From positions 1 through 45,271 of IMG/VR virus record IMGVR_UViG_3300037847_006994: a DNA stretch of 45,271 bases; one strand, given 5' to 3'. The notes below the pieces were generated by a model. It was not told where the DNA came from, made no database searches, and saw nothing but the letters and a program-made list of their open reading frames with translations. Positions 18,169-45,271 of this stretch are shown here, piece by piece (the first letter of the stretch is position 1; each line of letters begins with the position of its first letter). This DNA comes from a virus. Both the position numbers and the translations under genes were made by a program.

Positions 18169-19466
18169 TATTTTACTATTTTAAGTTTATCTTTTTTAGG
18201 CATTTTTATTTTAGAAATATTAGGTAATTTTAATTCCATTTTTTTAGGTAATTCTGGGATAGTTAAGTCTAATATCTCTTTAATTTTTGATTTCATTTTT
18301 TTATAACTAAAGTTTTTTCTAGAATGAGCTCCTTGTTTTTTACTTTTTAATTTCCACTCATCATACTTTAAAAATACATCTTGATAACCATTGTTAACCC
18401 ATTGGTCACCTACTTTAAACCATTGAGCTTCACCTAATATCATATCTTTAACTTGGGCAGATGAATGTACTTTTTCTAGTTCACCACCTAATAAAGCACA
18501 ATAATCTTTACTTAAGAAATCTATATGACCTGACCACCCTGTAGTAATAATAGGTTTATTTAAAGTACTGAATTCAAGTAATGGCCTACCAAATCCTTCA
18601 CCTTTAGTTAAACTTATCATTGCTTTAACTTTAGGATTATTATAAATTTCATTCATTTCAATATCTGTAAAGTCTCCATGTAACAAATAAACATTAGGTA
18701 AATCATCTCCTTTAACTGATTCTCTTATTAAATCAATTCTTCTTAACATTTCTACTCTATCAGCATTACTACCTCCAACAGCACAAGTTTTTAATATAAG
18801 TGCTGGTTTTTTAGGTTTACCTTTAAATATTTCATAAAAAGCTTTTACTGTAAGGCCTATATTTTTTCTATCATGTCCTAAATCACCTTGCATCCAATGT
18901 CCTACAGTTAAATATGCAAAATCTTCAGGTATAGATTGTATTTGTTTTTTTAAGTCTTTATTTGTAAATTTTTTAATTTCTTTATAAACATCTAAATTAA
19001 CTCCTTCAAATAATACTTTAATAGGTTTATCTAATTTTAAAATATGACTTCCATCTTTTGCTTGATATTGTGATGCTTCAAATGTTACCTTTGAATGATT
19101 TGATGATGTTAAAATTAAATCCATACGATTACAACCTTCAATCCAACTTGAATGTACATGAGTTGTTTCCATTCCTGCTGTTAAACCAATATTATATTTA
19201 CCTACAGGTTGAAATTCATTTGGAACTGTTATCATACACCATATATCTGGTTTTGATTGTAAATTTGGTATAATATGCTTTTGTAAAAACCCCCATTCTT
19301 TTTTATTATTTTCTATAAAATTTTCTGGTGTGTTTCCCCATCTTTGAGGTATAATAGATACTTCATATTCATCTAGTTCAATTAATGCCTTTACAAAGTC
19401 TCTAGAACGAGCACCATAACCACTAAAAGTATCAATTGGACAACTTACAACAAATGTATTTTTCAT
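18168..19466 (-). CDS. GT4-like glycosyltransferase (GT-B fold)
   Basis: 432 residues. The N-terminal acceptor domain opens with DTFSGYGARSRDF (12-24), the Gly-rich loop of GT-B enzymes. The donor domain starts near YLTVGHWMQGD (185-195), with RKN at 200-202, and holds the E-x7-E type signature KGEGFGRPLLEF (288-299), followed by PIITTGWSGH. The last 45 residues are Lys-rich. GT4 enzymes are retaining transferases for polysaccharide or glycolipid chains. Donor unknown. The Lys-rich tail may hold it at the membrane. Confidence 0.8.
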   Translation of the reverse strand: MKNTFVVSCPIDTFSGYGARSRDFVKALIELDEYEVSIIPQRWGNTPENFIENNKKEWGFLQKHIIPNLQSKPDIWCMITVPNEFQPVGKYNIGLTAGMETTHVHSSWIEGCNRMDLILTSSNHSKVTFEASQYQAKDGSHILKLDKPIKVLFEGVNLDVYKEIKKFTNKDLKKQIQSIPEDFAYLTVGHWMQGDLGHDRKNIGLTVKAFYEIFKGKPKKPALILKTCAVGGSNADRVEMLRRIDLIRESVKGDDLPNVYLLHGDFTDIEMNEIYNNPKVKAMISLTKGEGFGRPLLEFSTLNKPIITTGWSGHIDFLSKDYCALLGGELEKVHSSAQVKDMILGEAQWFKVGDQWVNNGYQDVFLKYDEWKLKSKKQGAHSRKNFSYKKMKSKIKEILDLTIPELPKKMELKLPNISKIKMPKKDKLKIVK

Positions 19467-19467
19467 G

Positions 19468-20910
19468 TTAGTATATTAATTTATGATTTAAAACTTTTCT
19501 TTCTATATCTGTATCTTTAGTAAATGTAAATGATTTTCTTGGTTTAAATTTTTTAAATAATTCATCCATTCCTTCAATTACTCTTTCACCCTGAACTTGA
19601 GCAGTAAATCCAGCTTCTTTACTTGTAACCCAATCATATCCAGCTTTACCTATTTCTTTTCTTTCTTTTTTACTCATATCATACAATGCTCTAATTTGTT
19701 TAGCTGCATCTTCAGGTGTACATCTATCATCCCAAATGTAAGGAGTTTTAGGTGAACCTACTAATGATAGATTAGTTGGAAATACAGGTAATGCCCATTT
19801 ACCACATTTTTTATAAGTACCTCTATGATTTGAAGGAACATTTTCATCAAAATCAATCCAATTACCATTTTCGTCTTCAAAACGCATTTGATCTTGCATA
19901 CCACCAGTAACATTAGCAATAATAGGAGTACCTGTTAATAATGCTTCTGTTAGTGATAATCCCCAACCTTCAGCTGAAGAAAGTAATACAACACCATCTG
20001 CTATATTATAAAAATGATTTAATTGATCTCTTGTTAATTTTTGTGATGATAATATTATATTACCTGATCCTTTATTTGGGAATAAAAAATTAATTACTGC
20101 TGGTAAATCAGTACCTGCATCATTTACAAGATCTGTATGAAGAATAAAATTACATTTATTGCGCTCTTCTTCTGTTAAAGTTTCCATAAATAATTTCCAA
20201 GCAAATATTGTATCAGGAATACATTTCCTTCTAATATTTCTAGAATTAAAAAATAATGTAAAATCAATATCTACACCATTATTTATTTTATCTTTTGTTT
20301 CATTTAAAGCCTTATCATTATCCTTAAGAGGTTTAAATGTATTGCTATTTAACCCATGAGGTATATATTTTATAATTTTATCTTTACATCTTTCTTTACC
20401 TAAAACTAATTTATTTATATTAACTGTTTGTTTAGAAATCCCAAATAAAGCATCACATGAATCATAAAATTCTCTATTATACATTGGGGCTGGTAAGTCA
20501 TCCCAAATATTTAAGTATGCTATTGGAATTTGAGATCTAATTTCATTTTCAATTTGAAACAACCAATCAAAATATCTTGGATCTGTTATTAAAAATAAAG
20601 CATCTGGTTTTTCATGTTTGATTACTTCTCTTAATGTTTTTGGATCTCCATAACCATCAACTGGAAATAATATTACACTTGAATCTTCAATTCCTGCATC
20701 TTTATTAATTGCATCAGATAAATCCACAGGTCTACCTTTTTCAGGATGTCTAATAGCTCCTGCCATTTGTATCCAATTGTATCTATGAGCTGTGTGAGTT
20801 ATTACTTCTCTCCCCACATTGGCTACTCCAGAATGAACTCTAATATCATCTGTTAATAATAGAATTTTTTTTCTATTTTCTTTTTTTATATAACCTTCTT
20901 TCATCTTCAA
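19468..20910 (-). CDS. GT4-like glycosyltransferase (GT-B fold)
   Basis: 480 residues. The N-terminal loop DDIRVHSGVANVGRE (21-35) and IPHGLNSNTFKP (183-194) match GT4 enzymes; the donor signature SSAEGWGLSLTEA (311-323) carries the two catalytic-site glutamates, followed by PIIANVTGG. It is the first gene of the unbroken glycan transcript unit, followed one base later by the second GT4 gene. The pair may build alternating linkages of one glycan. Met3 is an alternative start. No membrane helix. Confidence 0.8.
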   Translation of the reverse strand: MKMKEGYIKKENRKKILLLTDDIRVHSGVANVGREVITHTAHRYNWIQMAGAIRHPEKGRPVDLSDAINKDAGIEDSSVILFPVDGYGDPKTLREVIKHEKPDALFLITDPRYFDWLFQIENEIRSQIPIAYLNIWDDLPAPMYNREFYDSCDALFGISKQTVNINKLVLGKERCKDKIIKYIPHGLNSNTFKPLKDNDKALNETKDKINNGVDIDFTLFFNSRNIRRKCIPDTIFAWKLFMETLTEEERNKCNFILHTDLVNDAGTDLPAVINFLFPNKGSGNIILSSQKLTRDQLNHFYNIADGVVLLSSAEGWGLSLTEALLTGTPIIANVTGGMQDQMRFEDENGNWIDFDENVPSNHRGTYKKCGKWALPVFPTNLSLVGSPKTPYIWDDRCTPEDAAKQIRALYDMSKKERKEIGKAGYDWVTSKEAGFTAQVQGERVIEGMDELFKKFKPRKSFTFTKDTDIERKVLNHKLIY

Positions 20911-25169: not shown

Positions 25170-26807
25170 TTACATCATACCCGCACCTGGATAAGGTGTT
25201 GATGGGTTATTAATTGTTACATTTTTAGGGTCTTGAGGTTCATTTACTACTATACATTCTGTAAGTAATACTGTACCTGCTACTGAAGCTGCATTTTCTA
25301 ATGCTACTCTAGTTACTTTAGTTGGATCAATAATACCAGCTTCTTTCATATCAACTACTTTATCAGTTTTGATATTATATCCAGCCCAGGTATCGTTTCC
25401 AGAATCAACTAATCTATACCTACCTAACATTTGAGCTCCAACTGAGTCATGTCCCGCGTTTATAAGTATTTGTTCAAATGGTTTACCACATGCTTTATAG
25501 ACTATTTCTGCACCGATATTATCTTTTTTAATAGATTCTCTAGCATATAATAATGCTGCACCACCTCCAGGAACAATCCCTTCTTCTTGTGCTGCTTTTG
25601 TTGCATGTAAAGCATCATCTACTCTATCTTTTTTCTCATTCATTTCAGTTTCATTATGACCACCTACATGAATAATTGAAACACCACCACAAACTTTAGC
25701 TAGTCTATTTTGTAATTGTTCGCGTTCAAATTCACTTGAAGCACCTTCAACTTGAGCAGCTAATTCTTCAATTCTTTGATTAATTGCATCTTCATTACCT
25801 TTACCATCAATAATGGTTGTTTTATCTTTACCAATTGTAACTGTACGAGCTTCACCAAACCAATCCCAAGAAAATTTATCTAATTTCATTCCCTTAGATT
25901 TGTCAAATACTTGACCACCAGTCATTATAGCAATATCTTCTAGAATTAATTTTCTTCTATCACCAAAATCAGGAGCTTTAACAGCACATACACTTAATGT
26001 ACCTCTTTGTTTATTAACAATCAAAGTAGCTAATGCTTCATGGTCTATATCTTCAGCTATAATTAATAATGATTTAGCTTGTTTAGCTACACCTTCTAAA
26101 ATAGGTAATAATTCTTTTACATTAGTAAATTTACGATCAGCAATTAAAATACTAACATCATTTAGGGTACTTGTCATTGTATTGTTATCAGTAACAAAAT
26201 ATGGAGATTTATAACCTCTATCAAATTGTAGTCCTTCAACAGTTTCTAAATATGTTTCACCTGATTTGCTTTCTTCAATATGAACTACTCCTTCAACTCC
26301 TACTTTTTCAATAGCTGTTGATATTAATTTTCCAACTTCTACATCATTATTAGATGAAATAGTTGCTACTTGTTCTAATTGATCTTCTGATGAAATATCT
26401 TCTGATATTTTATTTTTTAATACATCAACTACCTCTTTTACAGCTGTGTCAATTCCTCTTTTAATTTCAACTGCATTAACACCATTATTTAAATGTTGTA
26501 ATCCTTGCTGTATCATTTCTCTAGCTAATAATGTTGATGTTGTAGTTCCATCTCCAGCTTTATCTGCTGTTTTAATTGAAGCATTCTGGATAAGATTAAC
26601 TCCTAATTGTTCAAAAGGTTCTTTTAATCTAATATGTTTTGCTACTGTTACACCATCTTTAGTTGATTGTACTTGATTATGATCTTGTTGAATAGCAACA
26701 TTCCTTCCATTAGGACCTAATGTTGATACAACTGCGTCAGCTAAAGTATCAATACCTTTAACCATTTTTTCCCTTCCTTCAGGGCCAAACTTAATTAATT
26801 TACTCAT
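25170..26807 (-). CDS. groEL: GroEL chaperonin
   Basis: 545 residues, full length (548 in E. coli). ATP-site residues are present: TLGPNGRNV (29-37), TKDGVTVA with Asp near 51, AGDGTTT with Asp near 86, GGGAAL and the catalytic VDDALHAT Asp near 397. The usual GGM-repeat C-terminus is replaced by the short PYPGAGMM. It forms the folding chamber with GroES. Its start overlaps the groES stop by 8 bases. Phage GroEL proteins are rare; a phage that brings its own probably folds an abundant or difficult virion protein. Host origin by transfer is likely but ancient, given the phage-like base composition. Confidence 0.95.
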   Translation of the reverse strand: MSKLIKFGPEGREKMVKGIDTLADAVVSTLGPNGRNVAIQQDHNQVQSTKDGVTVAKHIRLKEPFEQLGVNLIQNASIKTADKAGDGTTTSTLLAREMIQQGLQHLNNGVNAVEIKRGIDTAVKEVVDVLKNKISEDISSEDQLEQVATISSNNDVEVGKLISTAIEKVGVEGVVHIEESKSGETYLETVEGLQFDRGYKSPYFVTDNNTMTSTLNDVSILIADRKFTNVKELLPILEGVAKQAKSLLIIAEDIDHEALATLIVNKQRGTLSVCAVKAPDFGDRRKLILEDIAIMTGGQVFDKSKGMKLDKFSWDWFGEARTVTIGKDKTTIIDGKGNEDAINQRIEELAAQVEGASSEFEREQLQNRLAKVCGGVSIIHVGGHNETEMNEKKDRVDDALHATKAAQEEGIVPGGGAALLYARESIKKDNIGAEIVYKACGKPFEQILINAGHDSVGAQMLGRYRLVDSGNDTWAGYNIKTDKVVDMKEAGIIDPTKVTRVALENAASVAGTVLLTECIVVNEPQDPKNVTINNPSTPYPGAGMM

Positions 26808-28059: not shown

Positions 28060-28794
28060 TTAAAAATCAGTTTCTGCTTTCCTTACCATGTAGTACTCAC
28101 TAGAAACATCTTCATTTTTAAATTTAAATTCTATTAGTCCCATAGAACTAATCTTCATAGTTCCCTCTTCCATATCTTTATTAGCATGAATGATAGTTTT
28201 AAATGTGTCTGAATTATATGGTATTCTCATACCTTCATCAGCTATATCTCCTGTTATTTGATAGGTTATTTTATTATTATGTCCATGCTCATCTCCAAAT
28301 ACAAACTCACATACATTTTCACCATCTAAGTTAGTTGTTGTAGTAATTAACATATTGTCAATTCCTTGTAATGCACTTTTAGCTTTTATTAAATTATCAA
28401 TATCTTCACTAGTTAAATTTAAATTAACTACAAACTCAGGAATATTAACTGTACCTACTTTTGATATTAATAAAGGATCAGAAACAGCATAAGTTAAATT
28501 AAAATTTAAATCTGATATCTTAAGTTTATTAATTAATTTATTTTGTTTTTCTAATTCTAAAAGTAAATCTCCATTACAAATGTTAATTAAACTAGATAAT
28601 TTTTTAGTGTCATATATTGCTATTTCACTATTTTCTAATGGAAAATTATTACATTGAACTTTTCCTATTATATCTGCAGTTGGAGACATAAAATCTATAG
28701 TTAAAACACTATCTTTAATATCCCATTTTACAGATTCGCAAACATTTAAGTAATATTTACTTATTACTGATTGTAGTATTGATTTATTTATCAT
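28060..28794 (-). CDS. 45: sliding clamp (T4 gp45-like)
   Basis: 244 residues, close to the 228 of T4 gp45. The two-domain clamp layout is recognisable: a basic N-terminal helix (SILQSVISKYYLNV), YDTKKLSSLIN in the place of the conserved f-x-DL-x-x-fL strand, a central SDPLLI loop, a second domain helix (SEDIDNLIKAKSAL) and a C-terminal strand ending YYMVRKAETDF. It encircles DNA and tethers polymerase and, in T4, late transcription. It overlaps the carbamoyltransferase gene by four bases. Assignment is supported by gp44, gp62 and polymerase nearby. Confidence 0.8.
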   Translation of the reverse strand: MINKSILQSVISKYYLNVCESVKWDIKDSVLTIDFMSPTADIIGKVQCNNFPLENSEIAIYDTKKLSSLINICNGDLLLELEKQNKLINKLKISDLNFNLTYAVSDPLLISKVGTVNIPEFVVNLNLTSEDIDNLIKAKSALQGIDNMLITTTTNLDGENVCEFVFGDEHGHNNKITYQITGDIADEGMRIPYNSDTFKTIIHANKDMEEGTMKISSMGLIEFKFKNEDVSSEYYMVRKAETDF

Positions 28795-30392
28795 TTTTTA
28801 GTATAAACTTTATTATTAATTACTAGAATATCTACTATTTCGTTGTCTAAATGTACGAAAGCTTCTTTGGGATGACAAACTATAGGTTCACCATGTACAT
28901 TAAAACTTGTATTTAGTAAAACTGGTATTTGAGTTAGTAACCAAAATTGACTAATTAATTCATAAAATTTAGAATTACTTTTAGGTGTTACTATTTGTAT
29001 TCTAGCTGTTTTATCTACAGGATGAACTACTGCTGGTATTTTATCATGCCATTCTGGTTTAGTATCATATAACATAGTCATAAATTCAGCTGTGTATTTT
29101 GATTTTTTAACATCAAATATATTATCAACAAAAGTATCCATTACAACAGGTGCAAATGGCATACGATCATTTCTTTGTAGTCTATCATTTACTTTCTTAT
29201 AAGTTCCAGGCACACTAGGATCTGCTATTATACTTCTATTACATAATGCTCTAGGTCCATGTTCGTATCTACCCTGAAACCATCCTACTATTTTACCTTC
29301 TTTTAGATCATATGCTAATTGTTGTTTATCATAAGGTCTAACATTAAATTTACTTTCATCTACTTCAAATTCATTATCTTCATAAGAAGTACCTAAAAAT
29401 ACATCATTTAGTCTAAATGGTTTAAAATCTGGGTTTTTAAGTTTATGAACTGATAGAGCTGATCCTAATGGTATTCCCTCATCTCCCATAGGAGGGGCAA
29501 TAAACACTTCATCAACCCAATCTAATTCATTAATTCTTTTATTTAATTTTACATTAGCAAATATACCTCCTGCTAATGCTACTTTTTTAATATGGGGATA
29601 TTTTTTATGTAAATTATTAAAAATTTGTAATACTTTTTCTTCAAATACTAACTGACCATTATAAGCTATTATTTCTTTTAAATGTGATGTATATTTACTT
29701 CCAAATTTTTCAAACCAAATACTATAAAAATCTTTATAAATACCTCCTAAGACTATATTACCATTATCTTTGTCTGTGTTAATATCATCTATCGTAATAC
29801 ATTTATCAAAACATTCATAAGCAGCATCAAAATAATGTCCATGAGATGCAGTACCTACTACTTTACCTTCATCTTTAAGTCTTTTAAAACCTAAAAATTC
29901 AGTTAGCATAGCGTAATAATGTCCTAATGATTTATGACTAATATCAATGTTACCTATATTTTCTAAATTACCGTTACTACCAATAAAATATCTAGCACTA
30001 TATTTTTCACCCATAGCATCTATTGATACTACTAAAGTATCATCTTCAAAACCACTACAATAATAAGCTAAACTACAATGTGCTCTATGGTGATTTGTTT
30101 TAATAAATTTTTCTTTTGGAAATGGACCTAAACCAATTCTATTCCAAATTTCAGCTGTAACTTTAGCTGAGTAATGAGACGTTATATAATCTAATTTATT
30201 CCAATCAAAGTCTTTATCATAACTAACATTTTGTCCTGACTCCCAAGGATATCTAAAATAATCTTTCCAAAAATCTCTATAGGTTTTTATTCTATTAAAT
30301 CTTTCTTCTTCAAATGCAAATATAGGTTTACCATCTTTAAGATAAGCTAAACCACAACTATGCATTCCTCCTGATATTCCTAATATTCTCAT
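28791..30392 (-). CDS. NodU/CmcH-family carbamoyltransferase
   Basis: 533 residues, full two-domain length. N-terminal MRILGISGGMHSCGLAY and EEERFNRIK (29-37), metal-binding HHRAH (101-105) and SIDAMGE belong to the Kae1-like domain. The YrdC-like half shows RYEHGPRALCNRSIIADP (in pieces RYEHGPRAL and NRSIIADP) and LLNTSFNVHGEPIV. The family uses carbamoyl phosphate and ATP to put a carbamoyl group on a hydroxyl of sugars or nucleosides. Its place between clamp and polymerase suggests a DNA-base or nucleotide target, but a glycan target is also possible. It overlaps both neighbours by four bases. Confidence 0.85.
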   Translation of the reverse strand: MRILGISGGMHSCGLAYLKDGKPIFAFEEERFNRIKTYRDFWKDYFRYPWESGQNVSYDKDFDWNKLDYITSHYSAKVTAEIWNRIGLGPFPKEKFIKTNHHRAHCSLAYYCSGFEDDTLVVSIDAMGEKYSARYFIGSNGNLENIGNIDISHKSLGHYYAMLTEFLGFKRLKDEGKVVGTASHGHYFDAAYECFDKCITIDDINTDKDNGNIVLGGIYKDFYSIWFEKFGSKYTSHLKEIIAYNGQLVFEEKVLQIFNNLHKKYPHIKKVALAGGIFANVKLNKRINELDWVDEVFIAPPMGDEGIPLGSALSVHKLKNPDFKPFRLNDVFLGTSYEDNEFEVDESKFNVRPYDKQQLAYDLKEGKIVGWFQGRYEHGPRALCNRSIIADPSVPGTYKKVNDRLQRNDRMPFAPVVMDTFVDNIFDVKKSKYTAEFMTMLYDTKPEWHDKIPAVVHPVDKTARIQIVTPKSNSKFYELISQFWLLTQIPVLLNTSFNVHGEPIVCHPKEAFVHLDNEIVDILVINNKVYTKK

Positions 30393-31318
30393 ATGTTAAA
30401 AAACATTTGTTGGTATGGGTTTAGATTTAAAGTCCAACCTAAATCATTATAAAACCCTTCTAATTTATTTAATAAGATAGATTCAAAAATCTTTTTTCTA
30501 TCTGCATATTGCTCAATAAATGTACGCATTTTTTCTGGTAAATCCCACTCTAAAAAAGCAATAGCATCTACTTGATATGGATTTTGTTTTAAATAAACCC
30601 ATTTAATTTTATCTCCTTGTGATATAGAAGAATGTTTTTTGTGTAATCCCCAAAATCTTAATAAATCATTGTATATAATGCAAGCTTTTACTGCTGCTGG
30701 TGCTCCCTTACCTATTACTGAAAACATTTCTCCGGCTCTGGCTTTACGTTCAGTATATTTATTTAACTTTTTTACTGCTTGAGGGTTACCTAACTGTGTT
30801 AGAGGAATAGAACCATCTAATATTTGTTTTTTAAATTCCTTTAATCTATCATCTATTTCCTTTTGTGTAGCTCCTTTTAAAACATCAACTAAAGCACTTT
30901 TAAAAAATTTACCTAGTACAGGAGGAAAATTAGCTTTTTTAAATTCTAAACCTTTTACATCTAATGATTCTTTTTTAATACCTTCTTGTTTAGTAATCCA
31001 TTGAGCATAACGTCTAGTAGCTCTAAAATAAGCTGAACGTATAACACATTCAGTTTTCATTTCTAATCTATGATTATCTGAGCGAAATACTTCTTTAGCT
31101 AATTTATCATATGATTTAGTAACTACTCCTTCATATTCCATAGCTATATTTTCTAAAGCATTATCTTTTTCTTCAGCACTCATTTCATCAAAGTTACTAT
31201 GCCTATATCTTAATATAGGTTCAGCATGCATATAAATTGAATCTGTATCACTGTAAGTACAGTAATTAGTATCTTCAGGATCACAAATCCACCAAGGAGT
31301 ATCTTCTAAATGTTTCAT
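30389..31318 (-). CDS. 43B: DNA polymerase, C-terminal part (gp43B)
   Basis: 309 residues. It begins just before motif C of the family-B palm (TYSDTDSIYM, DTDS at 24-27, with the second and third catalytic aspartates) and continues through the thumb to the end of gp43 (the C-terminal YQQMFFNI region is a likely clamp-binding tail). The start overlaps the stop of the N-terminal gene by four bases (ATGA). Both catalytic motifs are intact, so the two chains should assemble into one active enzyme. No slippery heptamer is evident, so reinitiation rather than frameshifting joins them. Confidence 0.9.
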   Translation of the reverse strand: MKHLEDTPWWICDPEDTNYCTYSDTDSIYMHAEPILRYRHSNFDEMSAEEKDNALENIAMEYEGVVTKSYDKLAKEVFRSDNHRLEMKTECVIRSAYFRATRRYAQWITKQEGIKKESLDVKGLEFKKANFPPVLGKFFKSALVDVLKGATQKEIDDRLKEFKKQILDGSIPLTQLGNPQAVKKLNKYTERKARAGEMFSVIGKGAPAAVKACIIYNDLLRFWGLHKKHSSISQGDKIKWVYLKQNPYQVDAIAFLEWDLPEKMRTFIEQYADRKKIFESILLNKLEGFYNDLGWTLNLNPYQQMFFNI

Positions 31319-32991
31319 GCTTTTATTTCTTTATTCATTGCTCTGTTAGCTGCTAATGCTGATTCTTGTATAATTCTTTGTCCACTAAGAGTAATTGACT
31401 CGGATAAGATAACATTACCATACCTAAAACTACCTAAAGCAGTTGCACCATACAAACTGTTTAATAAAATTTTCATAGTATATTGTTTCATATGATAATT
31501 AGCACCTGCTTCTTTATCACCTGATTTAAATGCTCGTTTCATTGCATTTTTATACTTAACCCTTTCATCAAACCATTTTTTAAGAATTGTAGATAATACT
31601 GATTCTCTATCTTTAGAATACATAACGCCATTAGCTGATATAGTTAAATCATTTTGTTCAATCATTGCAACTATTCTACCTATATTAACTCGTGTTTGTT
31701 GTCGTTTTTTATTTTCAATAACAACTTCTTCAGCGTAATCCATACATTTTAAATCATTATAACCTAAACGGTTATTTCTATCATCTGCATCAATAATTCT
31801 ACCTACATATGTTTCTTTACCTATATTAATAGTCATTATAATTGATGGGTATAGTGATGTTAAATCTAAATCAAATAAATAATCCATTTTACCTGCTTTA
31901 GGACAAAATAAATAACCACCAGCATAATTCTTTTTAGATATTGGGTTACGATCTTTAGCAGGTGGAATTATATTTTTACTTAATAGATAAGCTGAAATTG
32001 CTCCATCTTGTGTTTTTGTATTAGCATATACTTCTTGATAATTATGTTTACCTTTATGTGCTAGGTTTTTAGTTAATGCTAAATATTCTAATTTTTCATC
32101 TAATACTTTAAGTATCTCAACATCACGAAAATTATACTTAATAAATGTAGCTATATCTTCTTCAAATAACTTATCTAAGTTACCATCATATTCAATTTTT
32201 TTTATACCAGCATATTTCTCACCAATTGCATCTAATCTCATTGATGGTTCATCTGCCCAACTAAATTTCTTATGTAAACGCATGTAATCTAAAGATTCAA
32301 CACCTGCTATTTGAATATACTGATCTTTAAACCAAGGTGTTTCTCTTACATAACCTATTGGAGACAAATGTTTAGCAAAATCTTCTCCTAAAACATTACA
32401 CATTCTATAATATAAATAAGGAACATCAAAATAATCACTATTCCATCCTACTAAAATATCAGGATCAATATCTCTAAACTTTTCTAAAAACTTAGCTAAT
32501 AATTCACCTTCATTTCTACAAGGTATAATTTTTTTATTTGATTTTGTTTTAATATTAGTTCCAAAATGATTTTTTTCATCTAAAACTACAATACCCCATT
32601 CATCTACTTGTTTATCATACCAAGCAATTGATGTTACTTTTTTATCAGCTCTTTTAATACCTTCCTCTGACATATCATCTAACATTTCACACTCAATATC
32701 AAAAAATAATTCTTTATGTGTTGTTGAAGGAGTATCATTAATACCATACTTTTCAATTAAGAATTTTTGATAAGGAGGCATATCATGAAAATGAAGTTTT
32801 GGATTATCAGGTTTCCAATTAGATATCTTTTTTAGTGATTCCCCATTCAAACCTGTAAACTGAGCATCTGCTTCAGAACACTCAATATATGCTTGATTAG
32901 TCCATTCTAATTTACTATAACCTTCGTCTTCCCATAGGTGAATTAGAAATTTATTATCTTTAAGACGTCTAGCGAATGCCTTTTTATACAT
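31315..32991 (-). CDS. 43A: DNA polymerase, N-terminal part (gp43A)
   Basis: 558 residues. Family-B exonuclease motifs: FFDIEC (Exo I, 96-101), GWNSDYFDVPYL (Exo II, 182-193) and YNFRDVEIL (Exo III, 286-294). Then motif A DLTSLYPS (376-383), KKW-x-R and motif B NSLYG (511-515), ending in helix ANRAMNKEIKA. Motif C is missing because it is in the following gene. Combined length of 867 is near T4 gp43 (898), so nothing is lost. Proof-reading and half of the polymerase active site sit here. The ATGA junction couples the two halves. Confidence 0.9.
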   Translation of the reverse strand: MYKKAFARRLKDNKFLIHLWEDEGYSKLEWTNQAYIECSEADAQFTGLNGESLKKISNWKPDNPKLHFHDMPPYQKFLIEKYGINDTPSTTHKELFFDIECEMLDDMSEEGIKRADKKVTSIAWYDKQVDEWGIVVLDEKNHFGTNIKTKSNKKIIPCRNEGELLAKFLEKFRDIDPDILVGWNSDYFDVPYLYYRMCNVLGEDFAKHLSPIGYVRETPWFKDQYIQIAGVESLDYMRLHKKFSWADEPSMRLDAIGEKYAGIKKIEYDGNLDKLFEEDIATFIKYNFRDVEILKVLDEKLEYLALTKNLAHKGKHNYQEVYANTKTQDGAISAYLLSKNIIPPAKDRNPISKKNYAGGYLFCPKAGKMDYLFDLDLTSLYPSIIMTINIGKETYVGRIIDADDRNNRLGYNDLKCMDYAEEVVIENKKRQQTRVNIGRIVAMIEQNDLTISANGVMYSKDRESVLSTILKKWFDERVKYKNAMKRAFKSGDKEAGANYHMKQYTMKILLNSLYGATALGSFRYGNVILSESITLSGQRIIQESALAANRAMNKEIKA

Positions 32992-34993: not shown

Positions 34994-35120
34994 TTTCTAT
35001 ATATTCTTTTAATTTATCAATCATTACTAATACATCATCTGGGTCCATTGTTATAGCACAACAAGTACCCACATTTTCTTCTATTTCTTCTAATAACTCA
35101 AGTGCTTCTTCTTTAGACAC
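34986..35120 (-). CDS. small acidic protein, 44 aa (GTG start)
   Basis: Frame from a GTG at 35120, inside the last codons of queE, to a TAA overlapping the thermonuclease start. The product is helical and acidic (SKEEALELLEEIEENVG...) with a Cys-Cys pair at 20-21. Overlaps on both sides follow the coupling seen throughout, which supports it. The alternative is a shorter frame from an internal ATG. Function unknown. Confidence 0.6.
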   Translation of the reverse strand: MSKEEALELLEEIEENVGTCCAITMDPDDVLVMIDKLKEYIENV

Positions 35121-35895
35121 AACGTTCAGTATTAAAAGCCATTATATGAGATCTACCTGTAAATCTCCAACCTCTATCTCTTACAAAATTCATTACCTCA
35201 GGATAGGATTCCATTAAGGATTCTCTATCATCACCAGCAGGCATTGCCCAAACTTTATGATCTGGGACTTCACATTCTTTTAAAAATTCCTCTACCTCAC
35301 TTACCATAGATAAATTTTTATCTAATACTGGTTTAATATGGTAATCAGAATGATAATTAATAGATTGTTTAATTGCTTCTGTGTTTAATCTCTTAGAATT
35401 ATGTTTTTTAATCATTCTTTCATCTACTATAGCACCTTGAGGCGTTTTAGCACCCAGTACGGGGACGCTATTACTAAACTTGGGACTAATACTAAGCAAG
35501 TTAATAGGGTAATCAGTAGGAAGAAAATGACTACCTTCAGTTTCAATAGTAATATAAATATCTCTTTCATGAGCAAGATGTGTTAATTCGTTAACTAATT
35601 TAGGATGCATAGTAGGAGATCCTCCTGTAAGCATCATTTCTTTAATATGGGGATTTTGATCATACATGTCTATAATATCTTGAAAAGAGTATGTTCCTTT
35701 TTCTGGATGGATACTCGTATACCAAGAATCACACCATCCTCCTTCTCCAAAATAACATCTATGGGTACATCCTGTTGTTCTAACTACGATTGTAGGGTAA
35801 CCTGCTCTTGATCCTTCTGATTGTACAGCAGTGTATACTTCTAATACTGGGAGGATTTTATTATAGTCCTCTATCCTTTTTAATTGTTTGTGCAT
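35113..35895 (-). CDS. queE: 7-carboxy-7-deazaguanine synthase (QueE), radical SAM
   Basis: 260 residues. QSEGSRAGYPTIVVRTTGC (25-43) is the QueE N-terminal signature; MMLTGGSPTMHP is the GGE-like SAM-binding motif, and ETEGS and SISPK follow. The cluster cysteines are C43, C47 and C55: C-x3-C as usual but seven residues instead of two before the third, through a YFGEG-like insertion. The canonical W-C-D after it is kept (GWCDS). QueE converts 6-carboxy-tetrahydropterin to CDG. The rest of the fold is intact. The expanded loop is discussed in the findings. Confidence 0.9.
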   Translation of the reverse strand: MHKQLKRIEDYNKILPVLEVYTAVQSEGSRAGYPTIVVRTTGCTHRCYFGEGGWCDSWYTSIHPEKGTYSFQDIIDMYDQNPHIKEMMLTGGSPTMHPKLVNELTHLAHERDIYITIETEGSHFLPTDYPINLLSISPKFSNSVPVLGAKTPQGAIVDERMIKKHNSKRLNTEAIKQSINYHSDYHIKPVLDKNLSMVSEVEEFLKECEVPDHKVWAMPAGDDRESLMESYPEVMNFVRDRGWRFTGRSHIMAFNTERCV

Positions 35896-35939
35896 ATTGT
35901 TAATTTTTTAAAGTGGTTTTTCATTCACTAATAACCTAA

Positions 35940-36404
35940 TTACTCGCTATAATAAGCGGCATTTTTACCATGTTCTGCAAACTTAACTTTAGTAACTCTT
36001 ACTCTACCATCAGTTTCAGTTTTAACAAAATCATTTAATTTAGTATAAATATACTCAGCAAATTTCTCTGCGCCAGTAGCTGGAATTACTCTTACTTGAG
36101 CTACACCTGCTGCATCCATTTGCTTAAATGCTTCTACTTCAGGATCATCTTCTGCTACAATTAAAGTATGGTCAAACATATAATCCATCCATGCTTTAGG
36201 AGACATACCATCAATTTGAGTTTTAGCTCTTTTCATACCACCAAAATCCCAAACCCAATTTCTATGATCTAATTCACCTTCAAAATATACTTTAAAAGAT
36301 ACTCCATAACCATGTACAAATCTACAGTGTGTTTCTTTTGCTCTCCATTGACGGAACACTGTACTAAATCCATCAAATACTTTACTTGATTGAAACTTAC
36401 CCAT
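35940..36404 (-). CDS. queD: 6-carboxy-tetrahydropterin synthase (QueD family)
   Basis: 154 residues. It belongs to the QueD/PTPS subfamily with FSTVFRQWRA (13-22), C27-x3-H31-G-Y, ELDHRNWVWDFGGMK (44-58) and FDHTLIV (77-83). The catalytic Cys27 and a glutamate near residue 146 (FAEHG) are present. It turns dihydroneopterin triphosphate into CPH4, the step between FolE and QueE. The classic three zinc histidines are not all in the usual places (F17 and Y33 stand at two), a variation also found in bacterial members of this subfamily. It overlaps the thioredoxin-fold gene by 8 bases. Confidence 0.9.
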   Translation of the reverse strand: MGKFQSSKVFDGFSTVFRQWRAKETHCRFVHGYGVSFKVYFEGELDHRNWVWDFGGMKRAKTQIDGMSPKAWMDYMFDHTLIVAEDDPEVEAFKQMDAAGVAQVRVIPATGAEKFAEYIYTKLNDFVKTETDGRVRVTKVKFAEHGKNAAYYSE

Positions 36405-36723
36405 TTGGACTACCTTGTTTATAATATGTTAATATATCTTCTACTATATCTAAAACACCTTTTTTAGATATTTCACTCATTTGATTACCATCTACATATA
36501 AATGTCTTATGTCACCAGATGAATCTGTAAATAAAATAGATGGGATTGATGTTGCATTCATTTTATTTGCATGATCTGCTTCATAATCAACATTAACTTT
36601 TCTAGTAGGCACTTCTTGTGCTACTTGGTGCATAACACCATCTACTAATTTGCCTAATGGTTCATTTTCCATACTAGGACTTGTAAAATAATGTATTGCT
36701 ACATTTTTGTTTGCGTATTTCAT
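36397..36723 (-). CDS. thioredoxin-fold protein without CxxC
   Basis: 108 residues. The fold is visible from the first strand (KNVAIHYFTSPSME), through VNVDYEADHANKM to the cis-Pro strand NATSIPSILF (57-66) and a C-terminal helix. At the place of the redox W-C-x-x-C it has T-S-P-S-M, so it cannot be a disulphide reductase. It may act as a structural or processivity factor, as thioredoxin does for T7 polymerase. It sits between queD and a small membrane protein, all in one transcript. Confidence 0.65.
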   Translation of the reverse strand: MKYANKNVAIHYFTSPSMENEPLGKLVDGVMHQVAQEVPTRKVNVDYEADHANKMNATSIPSILFTDSSGDIRHLYVDGNQMSEISKKGVLDIVEDILTYYKQGSPNG

Positions 36724-36740
36724 TTTAATTTATTTTGGTT

Positions 36741-36971
36741 TTATACTAATTCTTCAATTACTCCAACAACTTCACTCAATATAAGTAAAGCTGTTGCAGC
36801 AACCAAGTTAAAAGGAATAAAAAGATAGCCTACAATTCTTACACCTGATTTAAAAAAACTTACCATTTGGTGTAATTTTTGATCTGGCATATACTTTAAA
36901 TTATCCCTATCTTTTTCTATTTGATTAAAATCTTCCATAGTTATATAATCTTCTCCTTTATGATTTTTCAT
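36741..36971 (-). CDS. small membrane protein, 76 aa
   Basis: A soluble acidic N-terminus of about 38 residues is followed by one or two hydrophobic helices (about 43-73). It overlaps the queC stop by 14 bases. Met12 (36938) is an alternative start. No motif. Function unknown. Confidence 0.65.
   Translation of the reverse strand: MKNHKGEDYITMEDFNQIEKDRDNLKYMPDQKLHQMVSFFKSGVRIVGYLFIPFNLVAATALLILSEVVGVIEELV
36776..36807 (-). promoter_or_regulatory. possible internal promoter
   Basis: Minus-strand CTTGGTTGCT, ten bases, TACT, TATATTGA at the family's spacing, inside the small membrane-protein gene and about 50 bases from the thioredoxin-fold gene start. It codes for protein too and lacks the TT before the -7, so it is uncertain. 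Confidence 0.3.
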
Positions 36972-37791
36972 TTTTTAATTGTTCTTTTTCATACTCAGCA
37001 AGAACTTGTTCTACATAAATTCTAGCCGTTTCATAATCAACTGCACCTGTCTCATCAGCATATTGTACTGGATCAGGTCTTCCTAGTTTAATAAACGCTT
37101 CAATACGTTCTACAGATGATGCTGATTTATAATCAGACCACCCTTCAGGAGTTGGTTTGTATGATGTATTTGTTCTAGCATATACATGATCAAAATCAAT
37201 TCCTAATTTATGACATAATGCTTCTCCATCTAATAAGATATCGTATTTGTCTCCATTTAAGTAAGGAGTGTAATATCCTACTCTTTCTGCTTCCCAATTA
37301 CCTAATCTAAAAGCATTATCATCTGCATCTCTAAATTCTTGTCTACAATCAGGGTAAACAGCATGATCACCAGCATGAATACCTAAAGCAATTGCTGTAT
37401 CTTCTTTAGTTCTATTTGCTATAGATAAAGCTGCTGCTTGTACTAATGAAGCAAATATTTTATTTCTATTAGGTACTACTGTAGCTTTCATATTTTCTTC
37501 AGCATAATGTCCTTCTGGTACTTCATCTCCACCTTCTACTAAAGCTGAGTCTAATAATTCTACTAATCCATCTAATTTAATTACTTGATATTTAATATCA
37601 TGACCATTTCTTTTCAAATAGTCTACTAGAGCTTGAGCTCTTTTTAATTCAACCTTATGTTTTTGACCGTAATCAAATGATAAAGCTGTTACTGTTTCAA
37701 ATTCATGAATACATTTAAGTAATAATGTACTTGAATCCATACCACCTGAAAGTGATACTACTGCATGTTTGTGTTGGTTTTTATATTCCAT
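36958..37791 (-). CDS. queC: 7-cyano-7-deazaguanine synthase (QueC) without zinc cysteines
   Basis: 277 residues, longer than the usual ~225. PP-loop SGGMDSS (15-21), FDYGQKHKVEL (39-49), VVPNRNKIFASLVQAAA (105-121) and GIHAGDHAVYPDCR (137-150) give the QueC core, which turns CDG to preQ0 with ATP and ammonia. In bacterial QueC a C-terminal zinc site has four cysteines just before an R-x-x-x-F. Here the aligned stretch (about 208-233, TNTSYKP... to SSVERIEAF) has no cysteine: S210, D220, S223 and S226 stand in their places. Either the phage enzyme is stable without zinc or its reaction is changed. Confidence 0.9.
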   Translation of the reverse strand: MEYKNQHKHAVVSLSGGMDSSTLLLKCIHEFETVTALSFDYGQKHKVELKRAQALVDYLKRNGHDIKYQVIKLDGLVELLDSALVEGGDEVPEGHYAEENMKATVVPNRNKIFASLVQAAALSIANRTKEDTAIALGIHAGDHAVYPDCRQEFRDADDNAFRLGNWEAERVGYYTPYLNGDKYDILLDGEALCHKLGIDFDHVYARTNTSYKPTPEGWSDYKSASSVERIEAFIKLGRPDPVQYADETGAVDYETARIYVEQVLAEYEKEQLKNEKS

Positions 37792-41143: not shown

Positions 41144-42391
41144 TTAATACGTAATCTTTAAATCATCTTCATCACTATTAAAAGTTTTTGTTTTTGGGGA
41201 TTCTTTTAAATCTCTAATTTCCCATTGTGTTAACTTTCTTTTAATAATTCTTTCAATTTCTTCAATTTCTTCACGTATATCTTCTTTTCGAGGTTTTGGA
41301 TTTTCGGGTGCCATATAACCTTCTTCTACGTAACTTTCTTCTTTTTCTTCTTCTTTTACTTCTTCCTCATAATGTTCTCCAGTATTACCATTCTGGCCTA
41401 TAACATCCATCCTTTCATTGTCTTCAGCCCATACTAAGCTATTTGTTTCTTTATCAGGTCTATCAAATAATTCTTCTAATATTTCTTCTTCACCTATATT
41501 GTCTAAAGTATCATCTAAATTTTTATTAAATTCTTCTTTATCTTCTACTACAACTGTTTCTCCATAAAGATTTTCTTTTGTTTTTGGTCTAATTTGTTCA
41601 AAAGCAAAGTTAGCTGCTACTACTAAAGCAATAGCTAAAGGATCAAATACAAAAATAATAGTTAATAATAACCAATTAATAATTTTATCCATAGGATAAC
41701 CAGTTAAACCTGATAAGTATTTTAAAGGACCTAGTTCACTAGATACAGCATCACTTAATTTTACTTCAACTATTTCTTCTTCGTATTCAAATAGTTTTAG
41801 GTTTAAATCATCTATTTTTTTATTAATTACATTTTGTCTATCAATAGCTTGATCTAATTGTCTTTCTAAAGCATTACGAGTTGCTCTTGAAGTTGTGGTA
41901 ATTACGTTACCTAATGTGTCTGTATATTGTATTACATTGTTACTTAAACCATTACGTAAACTAGTTACGGATTTATTTATATTTGCTTTTTCATCATTGT
42001 ATACAAATAATTGTTCTTTTATATTATCTCTTTTAGTTTCAATTAATGCTATTTGAGAATCAATACTTCCAGCTTTTGCAGCTGTTTCTTGATAGGCAGC
42101 ACTTAAAAACCCATAAATACCCATTGAAGTAATTAAGATTAATATTACACAAGCTATAGATAAGTAATATTTTAATAGTCTTGGAAGATTTTTTCTATAT
42201 TGATATAAAAGAGAAGCTATTACTAATTTAGCTATTTCTAAAGATGCAGCCATTACTATAACAGCAAAAGCAGCTCCAGCAAATAATTTACTTAATCCAC
42301 TAATTGAATAAAAGGCTGCTGATAATGAAACTGATAATGCAGAGAATGCAATTAATAGGGGAAATACTCTTGGTTTAAGATATTCTATCAT
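41144..42391 (-). CDS. membrane protein with coiled coil and acidic tail (DUF4407-like)
   Basis: 415 residues. Three N-terminal membrane helices (about 11-30, 36-62 and 76-100, with AVIVMAASLEIAKLV in the second) are followed by a long coiled coil (about 110-215), a fourth helix (about 235-258, LLTIIFVFDPLAIALV) and a 150-residue highly acidic Glu/Lys-rich cytoplasmic tail. This DUF4407-type layout recurs in marine T4-like phages; its role is unknown, perhaps a membrane anchor for replication or lysis control. It follows the YkuD-like gene after 14 bases. Confidence 0.65.
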   Translation of the reverse strand: MIEYLKPRVFPLLIAFSALSVSLSAAFYSISGLSKLFAGAAFAVIVMAASLEIAKLVIASLLYQYRKNLPRLLKYYLSIACVILILITSMGIYGFLSAAYQETAAKAGSIDSQIALIETKRDNIKEQLFVYNDEKANINKSVTSLRNGLSNNVIQYTDTLGNVITTTSRATRNALERQLDQAIDRQNVINKKIDDLNLKLFEYEEEIVEVKLSDAVSSELGPLKYLSGLTGYPMDKIINWLLLTIIFVFDPLAIALVVAANFAFEQIRPKTKENLYGETVVVEDKEEFNKNLDDTLDNIGEEEILEELFDRPDKETNSLVWAEDNERMDVIGQNGNTGEHYEEEVKEEEKEESYVEEGYMAPENPKPRKEDIREEIEEIERIIKRKLTQWEIRDLKESPKTKTFNSDEDDLKITY

Positions 42392-42405: not shown

Positions 42406-43014
42406 TTAAACTATATCCTTAGACTCTAAAAGAGTGTAAGAAAATGAATTGCCCCAAATTTCCGAAGCTTTTTTACATATTCCAAGGAATTCATGCCAAT
42501 CATCATTAGATGCTATTACTTGACATCCAGCTGACCATTTATCTACACGAGTTGATTTGCCACCTTTTTTACCAGTTGCTCTATGAATATTAATTCCAAA
42601 TAAACCCTCTTGTACATTTTCTTCTAATAAATCATAATTATTATCTCTATTATCATCTCTATATACTAAAACAGGTTTTTTCTGTCCTAATGCTTCATAT
42701 TTACCTTGATGTAATCTAATTTTATGTGATCCTCTATATTGTCCTGGTTTTAAAATTGCTACACCATCTTCTCTCATTATATTTTCAACCCAATGGGTAC
42801 CAGGATCGGTAGTACATTTATAACAGTGAAATTTCCACTCACCTTCTACCATATAAGATAAGGTCATACAATCATCAAATGCATTTGTTACTCTATTTTT
42901 AGTTTCAGAATTTCTTACTCCTATAATATTTACATCGTAATCACCGCCAGAAAAGTATTTATACCCTTTACTAGCCATTGCTGCTTCTATTTGTTCTCTT
43001 GTATAACAATTCAT
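42406..43014 (-). CDS. L,D-transpeptidase (YkuD)-like protein
   Basis: 202 residues without a signal peptide. The second half has FGINIHRAT with His144 and then VDKWSAGCQVI, where S161-x2-C164 corresponds to the S-x-GC-x-R/Q nucleophile motif of YkuD-fold L,D-transpeptidases. The region with CYKCTTDPGTHWVEN precedes it. In phages such domains sit in cell-wall proteins and may crosslink or trim murein or act as lysis helpers. It is not proof of activity, and it lacks an export signal. Confidence 0.55.
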   Translation of the reverse strand: MNCYTREQIEAAMASKGYKYFSGGDYDVNIIGVRNSETKNRVTNAFDDCMTLSYMVEGEWKFHCYKCTTDPGTHWVENIMREDGVAILKPGQYRGSHKIRLHQGKYEALGQKKPVLVYRDDNRDNNYDLLEENVQEGLFGINIHRATGKKGGKSTRVDKWSAGCQVIASNDDWHEFLGICKKASEIWGNSFSYTLLESKDIV

Positions 43015-43252: not shown

Positions 43253-43582
43253 TTAAAACGCGCTCATTACTGCTTCATCAATATAATCTTGAACTTCTTC
43301 TCTAGTTGCAGCTAATTTAAAACTCAAATCAGCTTGATATCTTTTTATTTCTTCTCCATCCTGAAATATTAAAATAGTAGGTACTACTACTACTTTAAAT
43401 TTACCAGCGTCAGCTGGGTTAGCTCCTATATCATATTTTTCTAATTCACAATCAGATAATTTTTGTACCCAATCTACATCATTTGCTCCGTTCCAAGCAG
43501 CGTTAAAGTATTTTACTTCAATTTGTGAAAATACCGAAGATGATATTAACACAAATAAAAGACTTAGTATATATTTTTTCAT
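43253..43582 (-). CDS. exported thioredoxin-fold protein without CxxC
   Basis: 109 residues. Signal peptide 1-19 (MKKYILSLLFVLISSSVFS, cleavage before QIE) directs it to the periplasm. The mature part is a thioredoxin fold: EVKYFNAAWNGAND takes the place of the WCGPC strand-loop (W kept, both Cys replaced by Asn), VVVPTILIFQDGEEI (about 67-81) holds the cis-Pro, and a C-terminal helix follows. So it is a non-redox thioredoxin relative, possibly a periplasmic scaffold. It lies with a barrel and a T9SS cargo in one unit. Confidence 0.7.
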   Translation of the reverse strand: MKKYILSLLFVLISSSVFSQIEVKYFNAAWNGANDVDWVQKLSDCELEKYDIGANPADAGKFKVVVVPTILIFQDGEEIKRYQADLSFKLAATREEVQDYIDEAVMSAF

Positions 43583-43588
43583 AATTGA

Positions 43589-43873
43589 TTATCTTAATCT
43601 ATCAATCTTATCCTCAATACGTTTCATGTCTTCTTTTAGTTCCTTAACATCTTCCTGCGTAGTCATGATTGTTTGACGAATTAATTGATCTTTCATATCA
43701 TATTCCATTCTAGTTACATCTGGTGGAGGTGGAACTGGTAGTTCTTTTGCTTCAGCTATGTCAGCTTGAAGCGCAAACCACATTCCAACTACAGTTGCTA
43801 TAGCAGCTGCTATACCACCTAGTGTTTTTATACTTACATGAAACCCTGTATCTTCATTTAACTCTTTTGCCAT
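43589..43873 (-). CDS. small membrane protein with C-terminal coiled coil, 94 aa
   Basis: One hydrophobic helix (about 17-37, SIKTLGGIAAAIATVVGMWF region) followed by a Pro-rich hinge (PVPPPPD, 46-52) and a long acidic/basic helix (55-94) of coiled-coil type. The layout resembles small phage inner-membrane proteins, including some holin or spanin components. No lipobox. It stands between the barrel and the exported thioredoxin-like gene. Confidence 0.7.
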   Translation of the reverse strand: MAKELNEDTGFHVSIKTLGGIAAAIATVVGMWFALQADIAEAKELPVPPPPDVTRMEYDMKDQLIRQTIMTTQEDVKELKEDMKRIEDKIDRLR

Positions 43874-43876
43874 TTT

Positions 43877-44932
43877 TTAAAATATTATATAATTTATACC
43901 TATTGAAAAGTCATGCCATTTTCTATTCCAATATTTATTGTATTTACCTTCTGCAAATACTCCTAAACTTTTATCAAGTTTATAACCAAATATTAAACCC
44001 CCGTTATAATCAAGCCACTGTCCACCCTGATATTTGTGATAAGAATATGGTTGGTCAGTGTCAACATGGTAAGGCATTACATTACCCCATGAGTGTAACC
44101 AAAAATCTTTAGTATAATGGTAGTAATCAAATCCTAATACCATTGAGTATTCTAATTTCATTCCTAATTCATTTCTCATTTTTTCATCATAATCAGCTAA
44201 TACATCAGGTATGATAATATTTTCCCATACTTCAGTACTTGTTGCTACTATATTTCCACTAGGATCTAAATATGTTATTTCTTCTGGGTTTGAAAAGTCT
44301 ACTGAATATCCTTCTTGTATAGCTAAATATGTGTAATGTATATTTCCATTATCTAATAACCATTCATCTAATGGATTATAACCATAAGGATTTACTAACC
44401 TTTGTACGGCACCAACATTAACTGAAAATTTACTATTTATATTATGTCTGTATCTTTGTGATGCTTCAAAAAATTTAATGTCAGCAAATCCATCTTGAAG
44501 GTATTCTATTTTTATAATGTAATCATCAGCTACATATCTTAAAAAATGATGTTGATCTACATAATTTACACCTTGAACTCTTTTTAAATCACCTTCAAAT
44601 AAAAATTCAAAGCCTTTTATCTTACCAATATTTGCAGCATCTGAGTAGGTATTTTCAGTTCCATTATAAAAAGCGTTAGCTCTATTTTCATATTGAAATC
44701 TTGCTATTTTTCTTACACCTAAACTAACAGAATAGTCAAATGGTGTTTTTTGTACACCAGAAACTAATTGTCCTGTATTTACAGAAAAAGTATTTACATC
44801 TGATAATGAGTTACCACCGTTTATTGCCGCATAAAAAGTTGAAAATTTAAACGTTTTTTTAACCGTTTCTTTTAGTGTTTGTCCAAAACTTAAACTTGGA
44901 ATTAATAGTAATATTAATATTATTTTTTTCAT
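43877..44932 (-). CDS. phage-encoded outer-membrane beta-barrel protein, 351 aa
   Basis: Signal peptide 1-17 (MKKIILILLLIPSLSFG). The mature chain is made of alternating strands with many Tyr, Trp and Phe, Gly turns and Asn/Asp loops, and ends in a strand closing with Ile-Ile-Phe, the C-terminal Phe motif of Bam substrates. Length suits a 12- to 14-stranded barrel. A long loop region lies near 195-240. The ATG overlaps the stop of the T9SS cargo gene by one base (TAATG). It would sit in the host outer membrane during infection, perhaps to alter receptor display or transport; function unproven. Confidence 0.7.
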   Translation of the reverse strand: MKKIILILLLIPSLSFGQTLKETVKKTFKFSTFYAAINGGNSLSDVNTFSVNTGQLVSGVQKTPFDYSVSLGVRKIARFQYENRANAFYNGTENTYSDAANIGKIKGFEFLFEGDLKRVQGVNYVDQHHFLRYVADDYIIKIEYLQDGFADIKFFEASQRYRHNINSKFSVNVGAVQRLVNPYGYNPLDEWLLDNGNIHYTYLAIQEGYSVDFSNPEEITYLDPSGNIVATSTEVWENIIIPDVLADYDEKMRNELGMKLEYSMVLGFDYYHYTKDFWLHSWGNVMPYHVDTDQPYSYHKYQGGQWLDYNGGLIFGYKLDKSLGVFAEGKYNKYWNRKWHDFSIGINYIIF

Positions 44933-45271
44933 TATTCTTTAATAATTCTTTTATTATATATATTACCTTCATGTTCTATATTCAAGAAATAAACTCCTGA
45001 AGGTAAATCTGAAAGGTCGATTGTTTTATCTGTTATATTTCTTCTTAGTATTTTACCAGATATATCATATAAATTAACTTTTATATCTAAGTTACTAGTA
45101 ATATTAATTAAATCTTCTGCTGGGTTAGGATAAACTACTATACCACTAAATCTAGTAAATCTACCATCTATATCAATTCCATCTGGCCATCCATTTTCAC
45201 AGTAGTTATACATTTCTTGACATACTGGATCCCAATCATTATCACAACAGTAATTATCTACATCAATTACC
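44932..45271 (-). CDS. partial: C-terminus of a T9SS-secreted protein
   Basis: Frame open to the window edge; at least 112 residues seen, N-terminus missing. The first part carries a Cys-pair motif YCC-x3-DWDPVC-x3-YNYC, like the disulphide repeats of Flavobacteriia surface proteins. The last 75 residues are a textbook type A T9SS sorting domain: VYPNPAEDLINI, VNLYDISGKIL, LSDLPSGVYFL and a basic end. The cargo would be exported across the host outer membrane. It is the first gene of the envelope cluster in this window. Confidence 0.85.
   Translation of the reverse strand, partial: VIDVDNYCCDNDWDPVCQEMYNYCENGWPDGIDIDGRFTRFSGIVVYPNPAEDLINITSNLDIKVNLYDISGKILRRNITDKTIDLSDLPSGVYFLNIEHEGNIYNKRIIKE

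Follow-up and report, generated by a model that had tools for sequence, protein, structure and literature searches.

The T9SS is restricted to Bacteroidota and relatives (PMC7468147). In one of its known complexes, PG1035-PorP-PorE, a surface substrate is combined with an outer-membrane barrel and a periplasmic anchor (PMC9143113), and in T9SS operons the gene of the barrel comes immediately after that of the substrate (PMC12618676). The barrel SprF has a disulfide link to the gliding track (PMC12635249). T9SS cargo is also encoded by phages: Cryophage has an endoglucanase, a GH39 protein and a PA14 protein as cargo, whose genes belong to the variable accessory set of this single phage (Bellas et al. 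2020, PMC7468147). As for lysis, a survey reports unimolecular spanins as the only kind in Bacteroidetes phages (PMC12596118).

Here, we analyzed an entire IMG/VR virus record of 45,271 bases, which is probably a fragment and to which we refer as the window. Its end contains a cassette of four genes. Like PG1035-PorP-PorE and SprB-SprF, this cassette encodes a predicted T9SS-exported surface protein together with an outer-membrane barrel. However, it is phage-encoded, its sorting domain (CTD) is of type A and theirs of type B, its barrel has no detectable similarity to PorP, and most of the phage barrels lack the twin-Cys tail of SprF. Moreover, instead of PorE it has an inner-membrane coiled-coil protein and a thioredoxin fold without CxxC. 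By analogy, the cassette is laid out like the PG1035-PorP-PorE complexes, but it is not a member of them. A second likeness is with lambda Rz/Rz1, in which an inner-membrane coiled coil and an outer-membrane partner are also encoded together with holin and endolysin. In contrast to Rz/Rz1, with which there is no sequence match, no Rz1-like lipoprotein was identified in the cassette, the outer partner would be a barrel, and two further components are present, namely a T9SS cargo and a thioredoxin fold. Finally, the cassette shares with Cryophage the presence of a phage-encoded protein with a T9SS type A sorting domain, but its cargo is single and conserved, has no recognised enzyme domain, and is a constant member of a four-gene unit in many phages. 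We found no description of this unit in the open-access papers searched. What appears to be new is the four-gene unit as a system; the cargo domain and the thioredoxin fold were already known.

The four genes and their predicted products

Reading of the open reading frames placed the four genes on the minus strand in the order cargo, barrel, coiled coil and thioredoxin fold. An earlier note on this DNA had described them as consecutive and overlapping or nearly abutting, and this is what we found for all four: the cargo and barrel genes share 1 base (TAATG), and gaps of 3 and 6 nt separate the barrel from the coiled-coil gene and the latter from the thioredoxin gene, respectively. That note had also directed the four products to four different layers of the envelope, which agrees with the predictions from domains, folds, hydropathy and signal peptides, with signal peptides and topology being judged by eye.

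The cargo gene (44932..45271, minus strand) runs off the end of the record, and the window contains only the last 112 aa of its product, which cover the CTD and the final part of a Cys-rich module. The CTD matches Por_Secre_tail (PF18962) with an E value of 1.1e-15 and 58.1 bits, against a cut-off of 27. The earlier assignment as T9SS cargo therefore stands for the sorting domain, which scores above the cut-off, but in the window it concerns just these final 112 aa. The full-length cargo proteins of relatives have about 650-1,240 aa and consist of a signal peptide, beta-sandwich domains, short repeats, a conserved Cys-rich module and the CTD. Their N-termini were recognised by eye as Sec signal peptides, the window copy being truncated. 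The repeats, of the type GCTDPxAxNYNPxANTDDGSC, number roughly 4 to 21 as counted with a regular expression, and some cargo copies contain carbohydrate-binding-like segments with scores below the cut-off. Where a CTD was recognised, there was exactly one per phage; this was the case, with scores above the cut-off, in 34 of the 42 phages. For one full-length relative (L053), the cargo matches TIGR04183 with 41.6 bits (cut-off 23), and its CTD fold resembles 8glk and 8gl6, which are structures of the NucA and RemA CTDs within the T9SS translocon; the AlphaFold model of this 747-aa protein has a pLDDT of 72.7 and a pTM of only 0.37, so that the arrangement of its domains is unsure.

Several cargo variants were observed. 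The cargo proteins of L037, L040, L071 and L072 have another C-terminus, of the LLGR...FIYDDGTVEKK type, in place of the recognised sorting domain. The family models that were tried on the L040 protein and on the records of L040 and L071 did not recognise this end, which is possibly another type of T9SS signal. In five loci (L045, L055, L073, L076 and L081), the cargo frame is joined in frame with that of a small basic protein encoded upstream (KHGLKGVNKPKRTPKHPKKSH...), so that the signal peptide would lie inside the protein if translation did not begin at an internal start. In one locus (L089:5727-6962), an additional secreted protein of 411 aa is encoded between cargo and barrel.

The second gene (43877..44932, minus strand) encodes a putative outer-membrane beta-barrel of 351 aa with a signal peptide and F as its C-terminal residue. 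Its AlphaFold model, based on an alignment of 60 relatives, has about 14 antiparallel strands and is of moderate confidence (pLDDT 76, pTM 0.67). The best PDB matches obtained with Foldseek are outer-membrane barrels such as NanC, PorB, FadL and EstA; the model thus resembles outer-membrane barrels in general, and T9SS components are absent among the best 50 structure matches listed. The protein is outside known families: no Pfam family matched at E<=1, and its profile did not match solved structures. Two T9SS barrels were ruled out as candidates. For PorP/SprF (PF11751), there was no Pfam match and the hhalign probability was 8% against six PorP-like proteins, and for PorV (PF19572), there was again no Pfam match, with an hhalign probability of 0.4% against two PorV-like proteins. 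The mature barrel is without Cys in 57 of the 69 sequences, so that a disulfide link like that of SprF is unavailable to most phage barrels.

The third gene (43589..43873, minus strand) encodes a predicted inner-membrane protein of 94 aa, for which hydropathy and heptads indicate one transmembrane helix, a proline stretch and a coiled coil. Its one hydrophobic segment spans approximately residues 13-39 and is followed by a heptad pattern in which 73% of the a/d positions are hydrophobic, versus 14% elsewhere. Provided that this topology is correct, a single N-terminal helix followed by a coiled coil is the layout of an i-spanin. Both this protein, which is 62-87% identical in relatives, and the barrel are strongly conserved. 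Comparison of the coiled-coil family with PHROGs gave only weak matches, nearly all of them to families without a function, and two members match a holin family. Rz (PF03245) was rejected as a candidate, as there was no Pfam match.

The fourth gene (43253..43582, minus strand) encodes a putative exported thioredoxin-fold protein of 109 aa with a signal peptide, whose match to Pfam Thioredoxin (E=1e-4, 22.7 bits) falls just short of the cut-off of 23.5. Throughout the family alignment, CxxC is replaced by FNA[x][FW]N or similar, and the cis-Pro stretch VVVPT is retained. To judge from these residues, loss of CxxC together with retention of the cis-Pro stretch would favour binding over redox work. 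The protein had earlier been called Cys-less, which is wrong: CxxC is missing, but one Cys is kept.

Elsewhere in the window, overlapping frames at 30389-31318 and 31315-32991 match consecutive parts of phrog_262 and correspond to a split DNA polymerase, and a phage-encoded GroEL-type chaperonin is present at 25170-26807 (phrog_5725, E=2e-152). The regions 18168-20910, 28791-30392 and 35113-37791 contain glycosyltransferases, a Nol-like carbamoyltransferase and QueE- and QueC-like queuosine genes.

Linkage, gene order and distribution of the cassette

With the barrel as bait, viral contigs yielded 147 stretches encoding a relative, and 80 loci were retained. In these 80 loci, the cargo, coiled-coil and thioredoxin genes were found 72, 75 and 73 times, respectively, far above the window's next downstream genes K52 (1), LYS (21) and TM415 (19). 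With the coiled coil and the thioredoxin as baits, at least 293 and at least 579 encoding stretches were obtained. Of the 107 IMG/VR loci having at least 5 kb of flank on both sides, 105 contain the complete set of four (35/35, 36/38 and 34/34 for the barrel, coiled-coil and thioredoxin baits, respectively); the same contig was sometimes reached by several baits, so that these 107 loci are not all independent, and loci were retrieved by similarity and ranked, which gives a bias towards near relatives. Conservation of the neighbourhood had been set beforehand as a test that could refute the earlier proposal of a single assembly, and the genes do remain together. The four genes are a real unit, and hundreds of uncultured marine Bacteroidota viruses carry all four of them adjacent to each other.

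The four genes always share one strand. Only three of the 24 possible gene orders were found (in 119, 44 and 17 loci), each of them a cyclic rotation of cargo-barrel-coil-thioredoxin, and in most loci the barrel gene is located immediately 3' of the cargo gene. On the barrel tree, nine order changes are required.

When cultured phages were searched with all four proteins, the barrel and the coiled-coil protein gave no match, and the matches of the thioredoxin and the CTD were weak. In genomes, the barrel was found on five contigs only, which have phage-like sequence. Contigs with the cassette or the barrel were binned in MAGs named Nitrosopelagicus, an archaeon, and Maricaulis (L082, L084 and L085); with such MAGs among them, the five contigs are probably mis-binned phage. 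A host origin of the cassette genes was ruled out, as the barrel occurs only in phage-like contigs and, in the one MAG that was searched, the cargo occurs only on the phage contig.

Among 42 viral records, gp23, the T4 capsid gene, was found in 13, a contractile sheath in 15, and a strong match to the phrog_6681 terminase in 21. Backbones of the T4 type and of the phrog_6681 type switch at least four times on the barrel tree, many branches of which are weakly supported. The link with T4 drawn previously thus applies to the nearest relatives, which have a sheath and gp23, but not to the cassette, which is also present on a different backbone and was therefore ruled out as a trait of the T4 lineage. 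Such crossing between backbones would be expected if the function of the cassette depended on the host envelope, and the confinement of the T9SS makes Bacteroidota and relatives the likely hosts. Neither an integrase nor Rz (PF03245) was detected in any of the 42 phage records, many of which are fragments and may be incomplete.

Neighbouring lysis genes and a late-type motif

In the window, the cassette is adjoined by a putative endolysin gene (42406..43014, minus strand; phrog_3000, E=4e-35; phrog_33083 endolysin, E=1e-15), which is outside the conserved four. Relatives of this endolysin are present in crAss-like and Bacteroides phages, where they are mostly annotated as hypothetical, and its SAGC motif is reminiscent of L,D-transpeptidases. 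A multi-helix membrane protein of 415 aa by hydropathy (41144..42391, minus strand), found in 19 of the 80 loci, is associated only; some T4-like relatives encode it close to the cassette.

Within 5 kb of the cassette, 82 of 109 loci encode one or more endolysin or holin-like families. By a narrower count, such neighbours are present in 72 of the 96 distinct loci that were left after removal of identical barrels and with some flank being required; the small membrane proteins c5 and c32 were scored as holin-like from their shape or position only. The type of endolysin and the side on which it is located vary, and the cassette is constant. Confirmed neighbour families are Phage_holin_4_1, GTA_holin_3TM, Peptidase_M15_3 and Amidase_2 with a peptidoglycan-binding domain. 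By our own estimate, a random block in a 138-kb phage would be as near to one lysis locus in about one in ten cases. About a quarter of the loci have no recognised lysis neighbour, and in ten such loci the cassette is mostly located amid large virion-type, fibre, scaffold or capsid genes.

In two T4-like relatives (G003 and G005), the motif TATTTATA precedes the sheath, tail-tube and other structural genes. In one genome it was found at 22 of 157 genes and in the other at 24 of 196, mostly structural ones where recognisable by eye. TATTTATA stands on the coding strand, and its sequence is that of the T4 late promoter core TATAAATA when reverse-complemented (L266-L280). Judged by its positions, the motif is possibly the late promoter of this T4-like phage group; the regions upstream of gp23 are uninformative on promoters because gp23 closely follows another gene. 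The motif also precedes the transcription unit of the cassette: in 7 of 14 T4-like loci, TATTTAT is present within 90 bases upstream of the first cassette gene or of a c5 or c16 gene that leads into the cassette, versus 5.4% of random 90-base windows. In G005, the motif is located before c5, which runs directly into the cassette and an amidase gene. These data, all of them from T4-like relatives, suggest late expression of the cassette; the window itself is without the region upstream of the cargo gene.

Possible functions of the cassette

Given the lysis genes nearby, the late-type motif, the inner-membrane coiled coil and the negative searches for Rz and integrase, the outer-membrane step of lysis is the best single guess. 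We propose that the cassette forms a late envelope-spanning assembly, most likely for the outer-membrane stage of lysis, and put the probability of this reading at about 0.4. The physical complex, its topology and its function in lysis are what we infer from the predicted products and their surroundings. The mobile cassette would give rise to one cross-envelope assembly late in infection. The cargo would be exported by Sec and would then cross the outer membrane through the host's own T9SS, with its CTD retaining it on the surface, and the barrel would sit beside it in the outer membrane. The thioredoxin-fold protein would be a periplasmic binding partner rather than a redox enzyme, and the coiled-coil protein an inner-membrane anchor that extends towards the barrel. 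Holin and endolysin being encoded alongside, the latter would cut the wall, after which the cassette would break or fuse the outer membrane, substituting for the Rz/Rz1 spanins that are seemingly missing from these phages. Several findings speak against this reading. About a quarter of the loci are without a recognised lysis gene nearby, the coiled coil is shorter than would be expected of an i-spanin, inspection by eye of the window's barrel and thioredoxin revealed no lipobox as in a lipoprotein o-spanin, the motif is present in only half of the T4-like loci, and, to our knowledge, no known spanin requires a T9SS-dependent surface protein.

Exclusion, release and display had all been suggested earlier as functions, and of these, release fits the lysis neighbours and the late-type motif best. 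The other two make up the main rival, late surface display or superinfection exclusion, which we consider unlikely, albeit less so than the other alternatives. A large Cys-rich rod, held by the barrel and anchored inside, would then stand on the infected cell and block adsorption of other phages, attach cells to one another or to particles, or act as a shield until burst. Indeed, the cargo resembles an adhesin in being a secreted rod of several domains, beta-sandwiches among them, with repeats that vary in number, and some copies have the sub-threshold carbohydrate-binding-like segments; known T9SS complexes use a substrate-adjacent barrel as a shuttle and surface anchor (PMC9143113, PMC12618676); and about a quarter of the loci are without recognised lysis genes beside the cassette. 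However, the late-type motif and the lysis-gene neighbours are at odds with it, and the high conservation of the barrel and the coiled-coil protein suits fixed internal partners more than a surface arms race. Exclusion systems in many cases belong to prophages or work early, whereas integrase is absent from the 42 records; exclusion of the prophage type was ruled out on this basis, many of these records being fragments.

Takeover of the host T9SS would account for the single CTD protein per phage, with a CTD matching substrates solved in the translocon, and for a barrel gene straight after the substrate gene, as for SprB and SprF. Cargo and barrel would occupy the translocon or displace host barrels, thereby stopping gliding and secretion, and the other two products would brace or stabilise them. 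The lack of homology between the barrel and PorP or PorV makes this improbable, and it leaves the inner-membrane coiled coil and the link with lysis genes unexplained. It is slightly less probable again that the four genes merely travel together and have separate envelope functions: the order is rotated in some loci and additional genes occasionally interrupt the cassette, but co-occurrence is near-complete across unrelated backbones and far above that of other neighbours. In some phages, the cassette is located between fibre and scaffold or capsid genes, as might be the case for parts of the particle or baseplate that do not act in the host envelope. Such a role is highly improbable in view of the signal peptides of cargo, barrel and thioredoxin, the barrel fold, the T9SS CTD, and the sharing of the cassette by phages with unrelated structural genes.

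Returning to the outer-membrane step of lysis, a more specific and more tentative version of this proposal is that the cassette represents an undescribed lysis system of Bacteroidota phages, in which a four-protein assembly extends from the inner membrane to the surface, its outermost part is delivered via the host T9SS, and the cassette is passed as a whole between unrelated phage lineages. Outer-membrane breach by Bacteroidota phages is poorly known, with the survey listing unimolecular spanins only (PMC12596118). Being tied to a host secretion system and present across unrelated backbones, the cassette would constitute a new interface between phages and bacterial hosts that are abundant in the ocean, and it may serve as a marker for T9SS-bearing hosts.
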